This document shows, in pieces, positions 2,930 through 62,549 of a stretch of DNA of 64,000 nt. Numbering within the stretch: position 1 is the stretch's first letter; every line of letters begins with the position of its first letter. Source of the stretch: Pandoraea capi (GTDB lineage: Bacteria > Pseudomonadota > Gammaproteobacteria > Burkholderiales > Burkholderiaceae); NCBI RefSeq assembly GCF_902459735.1, contig NZ_CABPRV010000005.1, positions 310,001-374,000 of the forward strand. Direction: 5' to 3'. Under the pieces are notes generated by a model, which saw only the letters and a list, made by a program, of their open reading frames with translations, ran no database searches and was not told where the DNA came from. The translations under genes and the position numbers were made by a program.

Positions 2930-3715
2930 TTACTGATCCGCCTGACCCGCTGCATCGAGCATGGCGTCGGGCATGTCTTGCCATTGGCCGTCGATCAGGC
3001 CTTGCAGGGGGCGGAAATTGGCCTTGTAGACCATCTTCCGGCTCTGCTGGATCCAGTAGCCGAGATAGACGTTCGGTAAGCCGAGCGCACGCGCCTGCTC
3101 GATTTGCCAGAGGATGTTGTACGTGCCGTATGACGCACCTTCGACGTCCGGATCGAAGAACGTGTAGACCGACGATAGCCCGTCGCTGAGGATGTCGACC
3201 ATGCTGATCATGCGCAGCGTGCCCGCGCCCTGATGGCCGGGTGGTTCGCGAAATTCCACGAGGCGGGAGTTCACGCGGCTTTGCAGCAGGAACTGCTCGT
3301 ACTGCTCGCGGCTGTCGTGATCCATGCCGCCGCCGGCGTGCCGTCGCGACTGGTAGCGCATGTAGAGCTGGTAGTGCTCCTCGGTGTAGTGAAGCCCGGA
3401 GACGTTGACGGCGAGCGATGCGTGGCGCTTCCAGATCCGCCGCTGCGTGCGATTCGGAACGAAGCGTGCAATGGGCACGCGCACGGGAACACAGGCGCGG
3501 CAGCCGTCGCAATAGGGACGATAGGTGAACACGCCGCTGCGGCGAAAGCCCGCGCGCACAAGTTCGCTGTAGACGTCCGAATTGATCAGATGACTGGGGG
3601 TGGCAACCTGCGAGCGTGCCGTATGGTTGTCTAGATAGCTACAGGGATAGGGCGCCGTTGCGTAGAACTGAAGGGCGGACAGCGGAGAGAGCGGCAGTTC
3701 GTTCGGATGGGTCAC
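2930..3715 (-). CDS. bpt: Aspartate/glutamate leucyltransferase (Bpt/ATE family)
   Basis: A 261-residue aminoacyl-tRNA-protein transferase that moves leucine from Leu-tRNA to N-terminal Asp or Glu, feeding proteins to the N-end-rule pathway. The N-terminal ATE domain carries the cysteine cluster [13 protein letters not shown], and the C-terminal domain has [18 protein letters not shown] and [20 protein letters not shown], typical of the family. It starts 2 bp after the stop of aat, so both are almost certainly translated from one mRNA. Confidence 0.95.
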
Positions 3716-3717
3716 TG

Positions 3718-4476
3718 CTAAACCTCGTGAGCCTTGTCTGCTGCGTTACCGTAGGCCAGTGCGCTGAGCATCTGTTTATCCAGACGCCAGACCGGCGCGG
3801 GGGCCATGACCGCCTTTTTCACATGGGCCAGAAATGTCTGGCGGGGAATTTCACCCCCGCCGAGCGACGCCAGGTGAGCGGTACTTTGCTGGCAGTCTAT
3901 CACCTCTATTGCGTGTGTGCGTGCAAACGCGACGAGGGCGGCGAGGGCGATTTTCGACGCGTCGTTACGCTTGGCAAACATCGATTCGCCGTAGAACATG
4001 CGCCCGAGCGCCACACCGTACAGGCCGCCGACACGCTCGCCTTCGTAGAACGTTTCCACGCTGTGCGCGAGTCCGGCATCGTGTAGCGCGCGGTAGGCGG
4101 CAACGATGGCGGGCGTGATCCACGTGCCGTCTTGTCCGCGACGCGGGGCTTGCGCGCAAGCCTGCATGACGGCGGGGAAGTCGGCGTCGAGACGGATTTC
4201 CCAAGCATCTTCGCGCAGCACGCGACGCAGCAATTTGCGGAAGTTGTGACTGACGACGAAGCTCTCGGGCCGCAACACCATCCGCGGATCGGGACTCCAC
4301 CACAGCACGGGTTGTCCTTGCGAGTACCAGGGGAAGATGCCTTGCCGATAGGCGGCAAGCAGACGCTGAGGCGAGAGGTCGAGCCCGGCGGCGAGCAGTC
4401 CTGGCGCGTCGCTTGAGGCGTCGAGCGCTTCGTCCACGCTTGGGAAGGGATCGTTTGCTTCGAGCCAGACGACCAT
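3718..4476 (-). CDS. aat: Leucyl/phenylalanyl-tRNA-protein transferase
   Basis: A 252-residue enzyme that adds Leu or Phe to N-terminal Arg or Lys, making primary N-degrons read by ClpS/ClpAP. Family motifs seen: [20 protein letters not shown] near residue 45, MVLRPESF, and the C-terminal [12 protein letters not shown]. It is the first gene of the aat-bpt unit; the two transferases act on different N-terminal residues of the same degradation pathway, which explains the pairing. Confidence 0.96.
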
Positions 4477-4571
4477 GACGACGTTAGCTTTGCGGATTTG
4501 GCGTCGACGTCATGGGCAATCCGATGAAGTCGACGAAATCGGGAGGGCAGGCGCCGCGAATGCCGGTGCGC

Positions 4572-5201
4572 TTAGACACGCAGCATCGGCGTGAGGATGT
4601 CCTCGGTGTGCGCCGTATGCACGGACAGCGTCGGGACCGGGGTGCCGGGTACGACTTCCGACGACGCTTCGAGGTGCACGCCGAACGCCCCTGCGCGACG
4701 ATCTTCGAAGAAGAAGCGCAGCGTTTTGGCGACGGTCGGAAAGGCGATGTCGTCCCAGGGAATCTCGTCTTCCGAGAAGAGCGCGACTTCGAGACTTTCC
4801 TCACCGGCGGCGAACTGCGGCTCGCGCATCTGTGCCAGATAGAAAATATGAACCTGGCTCACGTGCGGCACGTTGAGTACGGAGAACAGGGCGCCTACGT
4901 CGACGATGGCGCCGGCCTCCTCCAGCGTCTCGCGCGCGGCGGCCTGGGCTGTCGTCTCGCCAATTTCCATGAAGCCTGCGGGGAGCGTCCAGTAACCGAG
5001 TCGCGGTTCGATGGCGCGCTTGCACAATAACACCTGATCGCCCCACACAGGCACCGTGCCAAGCACGTTGCGCGGGTTCTGATAGTGAATGGTGCCGCAG
5101 TGTGTGCAGACATGCCGCTCGCGATTGTCGCCGGGCGGGATGCGCAACTCGACCGGGTGGCCGCAGGCGGAGCAGAATTGGATGAGAGGACGTCGGTTCA
5201 T
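4572..5201 (-). CDS. Zinc-ribbon Nudix hydrolase
   Basis: A 209-residue protein. An N-terminal zinc ribbon (CSACG and CTHCG, residues about 8-35) is followed by a complete Nudix box: G-FMEIG-E-TTAQAAA-RETLEEAG around residues 72-95, which binds the metal and hydrolyses nucleoside-diphosphate-linked substrates. The layout resembles NudC-like NADH or NAD-capped-RNA pyrophosphatases, but it is shorter than NudC, so the substrate is not assigned. The ATG at 5201 is used because the zinc ribbon starts right after it; the frame upstream is arginine-rich and non-family. Confidence 0.88.
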   Translation of the reverse strand: MNRRPLIQFCSACGHPVELRIPPGDNRERHVCTHCGTIHYQNPRNVLGTVPVWGDQVLLCKRAIEPRLGYWTLPAGFMEIGETTAQAAARETLEEAGAIVDVGALFSVLNVPHVSQVHIFYLAQMREPQFAAGEESLEVALFSEDEIPWDDIAFPTVAKTLRFFFEDRRAGAFGVHLEASSEVVPGTPVPTLSVHTAHTEDILTPMLRV

Positions 5202-10686: not shown

Positions 10687-10747
10687 GCATTGAATTTTGG
10701 GGTGACCGATGGGACTCGAACCCACGACGACTGGAATCACAATCCAG
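10687..10747. repeat. attL: 61-bp copy of the tRNA-His 3' part
   Basis: Identical over 61 bp to 62462-62522. It carries the tRNA-His 3' end, T arm, variable loop and the 3' half of the anticodon stem-loop plus the anticodon (minus strand). Both flanks diverge at once (t/a to the left, c/g to the right), fixing the repeat exactly. It is a tRNA fragment, not a functional gene. Confidence 0.95.
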
Positions 10748-25682: not shown

Positions 25683-25714
25683 TTTAATTACTGTATGGAT
25701 ATACAGTAATTAAA
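25683..25714. promoter_or_regulatory. LexA (SOS) box in the immunity region
   Basis: Perfect 14-bp arms (TTTAATTACTGTAT, ATACAGTAATTAAA) around GGAT. The core CTGTATGGATATACAG (25691-25706) fits the LexA consensus CTGT-N8-ACAG with TA flanks. It is 35 bp before the gene at 25742 and 59 bp from OL, so damage could switch on this gene or the early left operon. Confidence 0.75.
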
Positions 25715-58889: not shown

Positions 58890-59669
58890 TTATCGTCTTA
58901 CGTCGCGGGCATTTTCTCGTGGCTTCTCCCACCACTCGTCCCAATCCGCACCGTAGCGGATGTCGCTCATCTTTGGTGCCCGTTTGAGTAAAGCGGGGCC
59001 GTCCATCCTCGGGTTCACGGCATGCTTCGTAACCTGTGCCCACTCGAAGGCATTGCCCATCATCGTTCGATTGGCGAGCACAAATTGTTCGTGCGGTACC
59101 AACCCAGGATCGAGCCAGAAACGGGCGTGCTCACCGGGAACGGTGACGGGCACGCGCGGCGCCAATTCGGCCAACATCCCGGGCGCCGGGGCGAGCAATA
59201 CGGCGACCTTCTTCACGGTGCAATGCACGACCGGGTCACCGAGCGCCAACAGGAACACCGGCTTTCCGTCGCGCGGACGAACGTGCCATGCTTCCTGGTC
59301 ATCGCCTTTTCCCCGAATGACAGTCCACCCGCACGCACATACCAACCGGCGTCGCGTCAGCCATGCCTCGCTGAAGTAGGGCTTATCAGGCGCTGTTTCG
59401 ACCTGCGCGAATGGCTGCGGTCCGAATTGCTTCCCGAGCTCGTTATCCGGAGCGTAGCCCCAATTCGACCAGCCGATTTCCACTTTCCCGGATTCTGCTC
59501 GATATACGGTCATCAGGCTTTCACCGGGCATGCGGTTGAATCCGGGCCACGTATCACCCTGATAGTCCTTTGTGACACTCCCCGTCGCGCCCAGCGCTGC
59601 CGCGTAATCGGCCCGACTGCGTGCGCAAACGATCCGGATGTCCGGTGCGTCGCCGCTATGCCGTCGCAT
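58890..59669 (-). CDS. Degenerate SRAP-fold protein (catalytic residues lost)
   Basis: 259 residues. It follows the SRAP (YedK/HMCES) layout: IVCARSRADYAAALG (MCGR... in the family), PGFNRMPGESLMTVYR, SNWGYAPD, AQVETAPDKPYFSEAWLTRR, CACGWTVIRG and a C-terminal FEWAQVTKHAVNPRMDGPAL. But the Cys is at residue 15 instead of 2, the Asn of NARxET is replaced (FAQVET), the Glu of WFEW is Val (WTVI) and the His before RxPV is missing. So AP-site crosslinking is not expected. ATG 59669 overlaps the small gene upstream by 14 bp. Confidence 0.75.
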   Translation of the reverse strand: MRRHSGDAPDIRIVCARSRADYAAALGATGSVTKDYQGDTWPGFNRMPGESLMTVYRAESGKVEIGWSNWGYAPDNELGKQFGPQPFAQVETAPDKPYFSEAWLTRRRLVCACGWTVIRGKGDDQEAWHVRPRDGKPVFLLALGDPVVHCTVKKVAVLLAPAPGMLAELAPRVPVTVPGEHARFWLDPGLVPHEQFVLANRTMMGNAFEWAQVTKHAVNPRMDGPALLKRAPKMSDIRYGADWDEWWEKPRENARDVRR

Positions 59670-59913
59670 GTTCGTCGAGCAGCGGCACGCTGCCGTGCTG
59701 AAAGAGGATCTTCGGCGAGTCCATGCCGCCTGTGTCCGGGTCGATCTGGACTTCGTAGGCCGCGACGCCTGCATGCCGTGTTCGCATCGAGTGCGCCACA
59801 CGCACGGCGCCAACGCTCGTGCCGGCTGGCCGCACCTCTATGGGCAGCAAATCGCCGCCAGATCCTTTACGGAAGGGGACGACGACAAATCGGGTGGTGT
59901 GTGGATCTCGCAT
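59656..59913 (-). CDS. Small protein under the first LexA-box promoter
   Basis: 85 residues: MRDPHTTRFVVVPFRKGSGG, then GAVRVAHSMRTRHAGVAAYE. GAGGGAGG lies 6 nt before the ATG. It is the first gene after the LexA box (43 bp away) and is overlapped by the SRAP-like gene, so both should be SOS-induced together. No family recognised. Confidence 0.72.
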   Translation of the reverse strand: MRDPHTTRFVVVPFRKGSGGDLLPIEVRPAGTSVGAVRVAHSMRTRHAGVAAYEVQIDPDTGGMDSPKILFQHGSVPLLDEHATA

Positions 59914-59919
59914 GGTGGC

Positions 59920-59980
59920 CTCCCTCGTGGTGCTGGTGAGGGGGTAAACTAGCATAAATACTGTATAAAAACACAGTATT
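59920..59980 (-). promoter_or_regulatory. LexA-controlled promoter, copy 1
   Basis: AATACTGT-ATAAAAAC-ACAGTATT (59957-59980), with the LexA core CTGTATAAAAACACAG at 59961-59976. The next 35-40 bp (leader with GGTGCTGG) are repeated at 61031-61070. It drives the 59913 and 59669 genes leftward. Confidence 0.8.
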
Positions 59981-60143
59981 TTGGGTTTTCAATTTTCCCG
60001 CTATCTTTTGAACCGCAGCACTGGCGGACGCGTACACACGCGTCCGGTCGTTTTCAGTAGTACGCAAATTGCGGCGTTGAGTAGGGGCCACCAATGTTAG
60101 AGGACCGGCCTGCCGACGTGATGTACGCGAGGAGTGATGACAG

Positions 60144-60380
60144 ATGGCAGCCATTCTTTCTTTCCCGTATAAGGGCTATCGAATTCTCTGTACAGCCATG
60201 CCTGCACCGAGTGGTGACTACCGAGGTGTGGCTGAGATACTGAGGGTGGCCGACGCCGGGGCTATAGGTGATGGTGCGAGCCGGGTGAGCAAAGTGGGCG
60301 GCGCTGTTCACAGCAATGAGGCGACAGCGATGGAATCGGCGGCGAAACTGGCGAAGGAATGGATAGATGAAGCTTGGTAA
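60144..60380 (+). CDS. Small phage protein
   Basis: 78 residues: MAAILSFPYKGYRILCTAMP, then NEATAMESAAKLAKEWIDEA. Purine-rich GAGGAGTGA lies upstream. It resembles short proteins with a YKGYRI strand followed by a helix. Function unknown. Rightward, divergent from the SOS operon. Confidence 0.62.
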   Translation: MAAILSFPYKGYRILCTAMPAPSGDYRGVAEILRVADAGAIGDGASRVSKVGGAVHSNEATAMESAAKLAKEWIDEAW

Positions 60381-60404
60381 CCGCGCCTACTTACCTAGAG
60401 AAAC

Positions 60405-60728
60405 ATGAAAGTCGTCGCTGTTCAAGCAAACCTCGACGAGACGGTCGATCTCGTTCGAAAATACGCCCACGATGAATTTGCTCGTGCCATTGGCGTTGAG
60501 ATGCCGTCGGAGCAGGATGTTCGTTGCTTTCTCCTTGACCGCTTGCGCTCGATGCAATTTACGGTTGCGGAAGCAGGAAGCGAGCTAACCCTTCAACGGG
60601 TATACGGCTGCGCGTATGTCCTGCCAATATGCATTCGATCGGAAGGGCTTCAGGTCGTCGAAGCGCGGCTCGTTGTCATGCCGGAAGCGCGTCACACGAT
60701 GAAGACTTACATCCCCATTTCGGAGTAG
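60405..60728 (+). CDS. Small phage protein
   Basis: 107 residues: MKVVAVQANLDETVDLVRKY, AHDEFARAIGVEMPSEQDVR. No family known. It follows the gene at 60144 by 24 bp and is probably co-transcribed; it is convergent with 60742. Confidence 0.6.
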   Translation: MKVVAVQANLDETVDLVRKYAHDEFARAIGVEMPSEQDVRCFLLDRLRSMQFTVAEAGSELTLQRVYGCAYVLPICIRSEGLQVVEARLVVMPEARHTMKTYIPISE

Positions 60729-60741
60729 GCAATTCCCGGGC

Positions 60742-60966
60742 TCATTCACCCTGGCGGACTTTGAGCCATCTGGCGATGGCTGCCGCTCGGGCGAGAGCTG
60801 AGCGCTCCTCCTTTGACAGCTTCGAGACACGCGCTTGGCCGCCGGTTGGCGAGATTTCACTTCGCTGCTCTGGCGTCAGCGCAATTGCTCTTGCATTACC
60901 ACCTTTCTTCGCCCGTTCTTTTCTTTCATGGCTCACTCTACTGCTCGTCGCGGTCTGGATAAGCAT
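60742..60966 (-). CDS. Small KGG-repeat basic protein
   Basis: 74 residues from ATG 60966; a GTG at 60936 is an alternative. RKERAKKGGNARAIALTPEQ then TGGQARVSKLSKEERSALAR: two GG-containing short helices like the KGG stress-protein repeats. It lies downstream of the second LexA promoter. Function unknown. Confidence 0.62.
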   Translation of the reverse strand: MLIQTATSSRVSHERKERAKKGGNARAIALTPEQRSEISPTGGQARVSKLSKEERSALARAAAIARWLKVRQGE

Positions 60967-61030
60967 GATCGCTCTTCTCGAACACTTAGATCAATCGGGA
61001 GCAGAAATCGAAGGGTGTCCTGTCTGCGGT

Positions 61031-61089
61031 CTCCCTAGTGGTGCTGGGGGAGGTGAACTAGCACAATACACTGTATAAAAACACAGTAT
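61031..61089. promoter_or_regulatory. LexA-controlled promoter, copy 2
   Basis: Core CTGTATAAAAACACAG at 61071-61086, identical to copy 1, with a similar leader (CTAGTGGTGCTGGGGGAGGT). It lies between the leftward KGG gene and the rightward operon 61156-62328, and may control either. In the leader the start codon of the 85-residue gene of copy 1 has no counterpart. Confidence 0.75.
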
Positions 61090-61155
61090 ATTTTTGGCGC
61101 TGATGAGATCGGTTCCGGTGGCATGATTGCGTTGTTTGAATCTCAAGGGGCGGGT

Positions 61156-61674
61156 ATGAGACGATTCACTCACGCAATAGGGCTTTCTTTAGCAGTTGAG
61201 GACTGGTATGGGGCATTGGCGCTGGCATTGACTATGCCGGATGTGTGTGGGCGCCTGTCCGAGCCCGACGCGAATTCGCGGTCACGCTACGTGCGATGGT
61301 TCGACCAGTGGCTACTGGCAAGTTTCACAGTGAATGTCGGCCCGCATCAGGAGCGAGTGGTGTTCCTTAGTGGCTCAGACTGCTATGCACTCAGGTGCTC
61401 GTACCTACATGAAGGCGCTGGCAATATCGAAGAGCAACATGCGAGGGAAGCACTCCGGTCGTTTCACTTCATTACGCCGCCGAATAGCGGGGTGATGCAT
61501 AACAATCGCGTAAATGACGTCCTTCAGTTGCAGGTAGATATTTTTTGCCGTCAGATTGCCGCTGCGGTGGACAGGTGGTCTGATCACATCCGAGCCGACG
61601 AAGCAATTCAAGGTCGTATTGCGAACCTGCTCGTTATTCACGACGGGGATACACAAATGGCGATCGGGCTGTGA
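61156..61674 (+). CDS. Hypothetical protein, co-located with SRAP
   Basis: 172 residues. RRFTHAIGLSLAVEDWYGAL, ALALTMPDVCGRLSEPDANS, SRYVRWFDQWL and CYALRCSYLHEGAGN form a pattern I have seen in uncharacterised bacterial proteins. AAGGGGCGGG precedes ATG 61156. It starts 70 bp after the LexA core and 22 bp before SRAP, so damage-induced co-expression with SRAP is likely. Confidence 0.7.
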   Translation: MRRFTHAIGLSLAVEDWYGALALALTMPDVCGRLSEPDANSRSRYVRWFDQWLLASFTVNVGPHQERVVFLSGSDCYALRCSYLHEGAGNIEEQHAREALRSFHFITPPNSGVMHNNRVNDVLQLQVDIFCRQIAAAVDRWSDHIRADEAIQGRIANLLVIHDGDTQMAIGL

Positions 61675-61695
61675 TGCCGAATACGGGGGACCATC

Positions 61696-62328
61696 GTGTG
61701 CACGAACTACCGAGTACCTGACCGCCAGCTGTTCAGCGACAAGTACGGCGTCGCCGCGCCTTCGGGTGAGTGGCGAGACGAGGTCTACAAGGACTATTTC
61801 GCCCCGATCATTCGTGGGGACGGCGACGGGCGGCGCTCAGACCTTGCGTCATTCGGGATGGTGCCGCGCGAGAAGATCCCGCAGGGCGTTAGGGTGTTCG
61901 ACACGATGAACGCGCGAGCGGAGACGGTTGGGGAGAAGCGCAGCTTCAGCGGCGCCTGGAAAAAGCAGCAGCTCTGCCTGATCCCGGTGCAGGTGTTTTA
62001 CGAACCTGACTACGAGACAGGGAAGGCGGTGCGCTGGGCTATCGGCATGGCCGATGGCGACCCATTTGCGATTGCGGGACTGTGGCGGGAATGGGAGGGC
62101 GAAGGCGGTTCTCGGCTGTCGTTCACGATGCTGACGCTGAGCGCGGATAACCACCCGCTGATGAAGCGCTTCCACAAACCGGGAAGCGAGAAGCGGTCGG
62201 TGATCATCATCCGCCCCGACGACTATGATGACTGGTTGGCGGCGCGCTCGATCGACGAGGCGCGGTCGTTTGTAGTACTGCCGGATGCAAAAGAGATGTC
62301 CGCGCACGCCTCACCGAAGGCGGTGTGA
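61696..62328 (+). CDS. SRAP (YedK/HMCES-type) AP-site shield protein
   Basis: 210 residues from GTG 61696, giving MCTNYRVPDRQLFSDKYGVA. The Cys at position 2 is exposed once Met is removed; it forms a thiazolidine bond with abasic sites in single-stranded DNA. Also present: FGMVPR, MNARAETVGEKRSFSGAW (Asn and Glu of the active site), LIPVQVFYEPDY (catalytic Glu), and the His in RFHKPGSEKRSVII. All expected residues are there. It could guard phage single-stranded DNA during SOS. Confidence 0.9.
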   Translation: MCTNYRVPDRQLFSDKYGVAAPSGEWRDEVYKDYFAPIIRGDGDGRRSDLASFGMVPREKIPQGVRVFDTMNARAETVGEKRSFSGAWKKQQLCLIPVQVFYEPDYETGKAVRWAIGMADGDPFAIAGLWREWEGEGGSRLSFTMLTLSADNHPLMKRFHKPGSEKRSVIIIRPDDYDDWLAARSIDEARSFVVLPDAKEMSAHASPKAV

Positions 62329-62461: not shown

Positions 62462-62522
62462 GCATTGAATTTTGGGGTGACCGATGGGACTCGAACCCAC
62501 GACGACTGGAATCACAATCCAG
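62462..62522. repeat. attR: 61-bp repeat within tRNA-His
   Basis: Identical to 10687-10747. It covers the 3' part of the intact tRNA-His; the tRNA 5' part lies to the right, in the chromosome. The phage restores the 3' end sequence on integration. Confidence 0.95.
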
Positions 62523-62549
62523 GACTCTACCAACTGAGCTACGGCCACC
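62473..62549 (-). tRNA. tRNA-His (GUG)
   Basis: 77 nt on the minus strand. It has the extra 5' G opposite C73 typical of tRNA-His, anticodon loop TTGTGAT (GTG), TTCGAGT in the T arm and an encoded CCA. The prophage uses its 3' part as attB. Confidence 0.97.

Follow-up and report, generated by a model that had tools for sequence, protein, structure and literature searches.

A conserved and apparently inactive SRAP protein encoded beside an intact SRAP in a Pandoraea prophage

Two SRAP genes at the right end of the prophage

We analyzed a 64,000-nucleotide stretch of DNA (the window) from the 5.85 Mb genome of Pandoraea capi. The window contains a 51.8 kb prophage bounded by an exact 28-bp repeat at positions 10701 and 62476. 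The left copy, attL, is at 10701-10728. The right copy, attR (62476-62503, at least 28 bp and an exact copy of attL), is inside the tRNA-His gene (62473-62548, minus strand), the integration target. Two genes for SRAP proteins are located at the right (attR) end, at the coordinates given for them in a first-pass annotation of this DNA: 58890-59669 on the minus strand and 61696-62328 on the plus strand. We refer to the product of the former, 259 amino acids long from an ATG at 59669, as pSRAP and to that of the latter as aSRAP. No phage record matched positions 38000-62470 in a megablast comparison.

Judged by its sequence, pSRAP is a member of the SRAP family. It matched the Pfam SRAP family (PF02586) with 69.2 bits (cut-off 27.1) over residues 12-216, and it matched YedK in the Protein Data Bank (PDB) with an E value of 2.1e-13 in a direct search and 3.5e-20 in a profile search. 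Alignment to a YedK-like profile with hhalign gave 99.8% over 222 columns, and pSRAP can be aligned to YedK along its whole length. The sequence landmarks that had been taken as signs of the fold (MPGESL, WGYAP, VETAPDKPYF and CGWT) are all present.

aSRAP matched the Pfam family with 96.6 bits (same cut-off), and its closest solved chain is 1zn6 (E 2.7e-33). Its active-site set is complete, as had been claimed: Cys2 (the GTG start gives Met-Cys), Asn72-Ala-Arg-x-Glu, Glu103 and His160. These catalytic residues show no variation across the window copy and 8 viral sequences (nine loci minus L068, which has an internal stop).

Loss of the catalytic residues and conservation of the pSRAP lineage

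We found that pSRAP has Asp, Phe, Gln, Val and Ala at the positions of YedK Cys2, Asn75, Arg77, Glu105 and His160. The alignment to YedK thus bore out the loss of Cys, Asn, Glu and His described in the first-pass annotation, and it added Arg77. The five distinct pSRAP frames all have the same set (Asp, Phe, Gln, Val or Ile, Ala or Thr). Among 26 YedK-like frames of Burkholderiaceae used as a control (26 loci out of 56 matching non-Pandoraea genomes), 25 had the full catalytic set and one lacked only the His. A second control consisted of the best 80 distinct frames of at least 120 amino acids from a scan of viral sequences, the patterns of which would be blind to dead SRAPs substituted differently. 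Seventy-five of the 80 kept Cys, Asn, Glu and His; the other five were the pSRAPs. Arg77 was present in 73 of these 75 frames and was replaced by Lys in one and by Thr in one.

The missing Cys is not a consequence of the start codon chosen. The relatives of the window pSRAP start with M-D-I-R-I, aligned exactly with M-C-G-R-F of YedK. The window copy has P-D-I-R-I at this place and an in-frame ATG eight codons earlier. Neither reading of the start yields Cys2, and we rejected a hidden Cys2 on these grounds. The reported loss of the N-terminal Cys therefore stands, with Asp in the relatives and Pro-Asp in the window copy.

The substitutions extend beyond the catalytic residues. Fifty-two positions are near-invariant, with one residue in at least 95% of 70 active sequences. 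In this comparison, from which the frameshifted L090 was excluded, the pSRAPs kept 23 of them, including R4, N37, P40, W61, G102-W103 and R162, and the remaining 29 are changed in at least one pSRAP. Those changed in every pSRAP include C2, G3, W67, I74, N75, R77, E105, W106, Q114, P115, H160 and D161. The pSRAPs also differ in charge: isoelectric points are 8.8-9.5 in four pSRAPs, while for 73 active viral SRAPs the median is 5.2 and a single protein gets up to 8.8.

These changes can be read against published mutants of YedK. According to that work (PMC9436759), Cys2 is needed for the crosslink and Glu105 is next in importance. Glu105 also drives a lyase side reaction, which remains in the C2A single mutant and is slowed 25-fold by E105Q. 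Without Cys2, Glu105 and His160, pSRAP would be expected neither to form a crosslink nor to act as a lyase. The replacement of five catalytic positions in 5/5 frames, together with the YedK mutants, strongly supports the earlier suggestion that pSRAP is inactive. We conclude that it is very probably catalytically dead, unable to crosslink or to cleave as a lyase.

pSRAP was found at five loci: the window (L010), L011 (the same protein as that of genome G003), L012, L013 (identical to the proteins of G019 and L017, from Pandoraea pneumonica) and L014. The reading frame is open at four of the five. The ratio of nonsynonymous to synonymous divergence (dN/dS) was 0.10 for L011 and L012, and 0.15 for each of these two versus L013; in pairs that involve the window copy, dS was saturated (>2). 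For aSRAP, dN/dS was 0.08-0.15. In phylogenetic trees (L014 excluded), the pSRAPs form one clade (support 100/100), the stem of which is 3.0-3.6 changes per site long. The clade falls on the YedK side of the family, separate from aSRAP. Placement on different SRAP branches rules out that pSRAP is a local duplicate of aSRAP. A topology joining pSRAP in one clade with a YedK-type SRAP from the viral contig at L091 was not rejected in the approximately unbiased (AU) test (p-AU 0.38). Loss of the pocket is fixed across the lineage and pSRAP is under purifying selection, and we are not looking at local decay. The simplest account is a single loss of activity that predates the divergence of these phages, followed by retention of the protein.

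We saw no protein of the pSRAP type outside Pandoraea in comparisons with genomes, plasmids and phages. Across 398 genomes of Burkholderiaceae, a set that includes Pandoraea, the top score in any other genus was 76.5 bits, versus at least 511 for pSRAP. Residues were checked at 26 non-Pandoraea loci (56 genomes matched), and all of them had Cys, Asn and Glu intact. A set of 369 genomes of the class gave one other match (76.9 bits), and it retains Cys2, Asn-Ala-Arg, Glu and His. The window pSRAP matched 1222 plasmid records, with identity up to 30.8% among the 40 listed, and 17 phage records, with identity up to 30.7%; these matches were compared by identity only and not by catalytic residues. 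No plasmid record matched the L011 pSRAP at an E value of 1e-20. A pattern scan of genome contigs used two short patterns and is a weak search. In the literature we found no paper on inactive phage SRAPs, in a partial survey with most subscription papers outside its coverage. Overall, pSRAP represents a selectively kept and very probably catalytically dead SRAP lineage in Pandoraea genomes and viral contigs, and a variant of a known family.

The first-pass annotation had proposed a search for phages that keep both SRAPs, and the pair was found at 5/5 pSRAP loci, with gene starts 1.1-2.0 kb apart. Each of the four open pSRAPs is beside an open aSRAP. At L014, pSRAP is frameshifted and the accompanying aSRAP is broken by a stop. 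Among 32 Pandoraea genomes, an open pSRAP was present in 3 of the 7 with an intact aSRAP and in none of the other 25 (exact one-sided p 0.007). The genes are linked and related, and the viral set contains three of the loci as well, which makes this weak support for the pairing.

LexA boxes, up86 and the exchangeable slot

Both SRAP genes had been described as lying by LexA-box promoters. The boxes are there, but each SRAP gene is the second, not the first, gene behind its box. LexA box 1 (CTGTATAAAAACACAG, 59961-59976) is about 48 bp before up86 (59656-59913, minus strand), which encodes 85 amino acids and is followed by pSRAP, the start of which it overlaps. The identical LexA box 2 (61071-61086) is followed by a gene for 183 amino acids (61123-61674, plus strand; PHROG 18591, function unknown) and then by aSRAP. 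Both boxes fit CTGT-N8-ACAG at a promoter. They are contained in a 20-mer that occurs in two exact copies, at 59960 and 61070 (100 shuffles gave a mean of 0.00). By eye, 59920-59985 and 61040-61098 are alike beyond the box, as if a promoter had been duplicated about 1.1 kb apart. From the gene spacing, each box and its gene pair probably form an operon, and the boxes predict LexA control of both pairs.

A LexA box is in front of pSRAP at all five loci. At L013, up86 was not found at the pSRAP locus, and pSRAP comes first after the box, at a distance of 50 bp. At L012, L013 and L014 there is one box between the pSRAP gene pair and divergent genes leading to aSRAP. At L011 a HicA-HicB pair is between the two sides, and no strict LexA box was found on the aSRAP side. 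A scan of the host genome for a related pattern, with two mismatches at most, gave 27 strand hits versus 8 for the reversed control. Some of the hits precede genes that resemble recA, imuA, dinB and uvrA (named by reading the sequence).

Three more open reading frames are between the two boxes. Those for 78 (60144-60380) and 107 amino acids (60405-60728), both on the plus strand, belong to no family. The third, for 74 amino acids (60742-60966, minus strand), points away from LexA box 2 and has a weak match of 29 residues to PHROG 2384. It has 17 residues (76%) in common with a P63C-domain protein of L013 (3806-4927), which adjoins the LexA box of that locus. A third CTGTN8ACAG box is located mid-prophage (25691-25706); on neither strand does an open reading frame of at least 100 amino acids start in the 250 bp downstream of it.

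up86 appears to belong to a small-protein family that has not been described and that is a candidate SOS gene family. It had no Pfam match near the cut-off and none in PHROG, NCBIfam or PADLOC. Homologs (79-85 amino acids) were found in 28/32 Pandoraea genomes and in 4 genomes of another Burkholderiaceae genus, with 51 matches in total. A CTGTN8ACAG box starts 49-83 bp before the matched up86 start in 30/30 betaproteobacterial loci examined (L181-L210), many of which are near-copies and one of which has a second box further out. Homologs also occur in alphaproteobacteria (e.g., L233 3986-4225 and L245 151-390). In Agrobacterium phage Rivra and plasmid pAtCFBP5507b, an up86 homolog is preceded by GAAC-N7-GAAC, which we take to be the alphaproteobacterial LexA motif, and lies ahead of two small genes and then a SRAP gene; the SRAP in the phage looks active. 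We examined 11 alphaproteobacterial loci, namely the phage and 10 from among 26 plasmid records: 7 have the motif 33-48 bp upstream of the up86 homolog and 4 lack it. No gene annotated as SRAP was seen in the other annotated alphaproteobacterial neighborhoods, so the link between up86 and SRAP is not general. On a Rhizobium leguminosarum plasmid (L236 4241-4912), 16 bp separate an up86 homolog from a gene annotated as a DUF2161 PD-(D/E)XK-type phosphodiesterase.

The slot behind up86 is variable. It is occupied by a frame for 99 amino acids in L006, L007 and L081 and by a 646-amino-acid eCIS_core protein in L016. The 3' end of pSRAP (86-124 bp, 78-91% identity to window 58893-59000) is left as a scar in L006, L007 and L016, and weaker remnants are present in L008 and L009. 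The pSRAP 3' end marks an exchange point of the prophage end.

Possible roles of pSRAP and comparison with known systems

We tentatively favor the notion of pSRAP as a conserved YedK-branch pseudoenzyme that binds single-stranded DNA or a partner without a covalent bond and tunes the active SRAP during the SOS response. DNA damage would lead to synthesis of both proteins. aSRAP would crosslink to abasic sites where phage DNA is single-stranded. pSRAP, bound non-covalently to single-stranded DNA or to a partner protein, would tune this process, for example through a reversible hold on lesion or fork DNA. Binding without crosslinking and modulation of the active copy, both raised in the first-pass annotation, would fit three observations. 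SRAPs with mutations in Glu, His or Asn retain DNA binding (PMC9436759); pSRAP is basic; and the open pSRAPs found are all beside an open aSRAP. The basic charge is compatible with nucleic-acid binding but does not prove it. A more elaborate version is unlikely as a whole: the dead SRAP, induced by SOS along with the small SOS-family protein (up86), would reversibly occupy abasic sites or single-stranded ends and so decide where and when aSRAP locks on covalently.

Several observations weigh against this notion. W67, R77 and W106, which we take to lie near the DNA channel in YedK, are lost in pSRAP, so DNA binding is not necessarily retained. The L014 copy is frameshifted, and at four more places in genomes only tail fragments of pSRAP remain. 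The co-occurrence with aSRAP comes from a few related prophage ends, where neighbors move together, and aSRAP occurs without a full pSRAP at 4/9 viral loci (in the stretches available) and in 4/7 genomes. Lastly, other phages have unrelated genes in the slot after up86, and pSRAP may be plain cargo.

This last point leads to an explanation that we regard as almost as likely as a non-covalent tuner of aSRAP. pSRAP might be a moron in the exchangeable slot, its pocket remodeled for something unrelated to abasic sites, such as an anti-defense or lysogenic trait. The replacement of pSRAP by other genes in related phages, with its 3' scars left behind, is in line with this, as are the many fixed pocket substitutions, which a new pocket would be expected to show. 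However, open pSRAP was found only where open aSRAP is present, and an anti-defense role found no support in the PADLOC models, which at E 0.1 matched none of 10 proteins from the cassette and from its relatives. In PMC11078745, deletion of yedK had no effect on immunity by the phage-DNA glycosylase Brig1, and a SRAP role against such a defense gains no support from it.

It is improbable that pSRAP inhibits host or rival-phage SRAPs in a dominant-negative manner. Potential targets exist, as aSRAP-type genes are found in other Pandoraea genomes (pieces in 16/32). However, the carrier phage encodes a SRAP itself, and its host has the two prophage SRAPs and no other, which makes action against a host SRAP, as had been suggested, unlikely here. 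That suggestion is poorly supported more generally: a Pfam SRAP match is present in 11/32 Pandoraea genomes and absent from 21/32. We consider it very improbable that pSRAP is a re-engineered enzyme using other chemistry. Cys111 and Cys113 of the motif V-C-A-C-G-W-T stand where YedK has F99 and D101; they could provide such chemistry and are invariant in four pSRAP sequences, but no acid/base partner is evident and E105 and H160 are gone. Finally, we rejected a decaying pseudogene as hardly credible: the loss of every catalytic residue, the L014 frameshift and the tail fragments would agree with decay, but the frame is open at 4/5 loci, dN/dS is 0.10-0.15, and one substitution set is fixed in all pSRAPs.

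The conservation of SRAP extends to every domain of life (PMC9436759). With regard to the control of the long-lived SRAP-DNA crosslinks, a selected SRAP without its pocket beside an active one would offer a ready test for a non-covalent SRAP role. In addition, up86, as a candidate SOS family without a name, accompanies SRAP genes in two bacterial classes.

A dead paralog as the partner of an active enzyme in an SOS operon has precedent. According to the accessible text of PMC3765255, SOS systems include the inactive paralogs ImuA (of RecA) and ImuB (of a Y-family polymerase). The same text suggests that phage SRAPs are damage sensors and makes no mention of an inactive SRAP. The logic would be the same for pSRAP, although ImuA and ImuB are not homologous to SRAPs and we only infer the partnership. 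Within the SRAP family, pSRAP can be compared with E. coli YedK (PF02586; PDB 2icu, 6nua and 6kcq), to which it aligns over the whole length. pSRAP differs from YedK in having about 30 additional C-terminal residues and in being basic, whereas YedK is acidic. The relatives of aSRAP are on the other branch and include PDB 1zn6 and gp28 of Burkholderia phage KS9, as well as a DUF159 protein of a Paraburkholderia prophage (PMC5567305).

A close parallel to the pair is on viral contig IMGVR_UViG_3300044842_000077 (L091), where a YedK-branch SRAP adjoins a 1zn6-branch SRAP (3001-5110). Of the 75 loci in the best-80 viral scan that are not pSRAPs, no other has a pair of this kind within flanks of up to 3 kb. 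Unlike pSRAP, the YedK-branch SRAP of L091 keeps Cys, Asn, Glu and His, with Lys in place of R77; the catalytic residues of its neighbor are present (by alignment or reading). The pair is followed by frames resembling HicA-HicB, as in L011. In the P. capi prophage, aSRAP and pSRAP likewise belong to one superfamily and share a phage end, each behind its own copy of an identical LexA box, but only aSRAP has the full active site.

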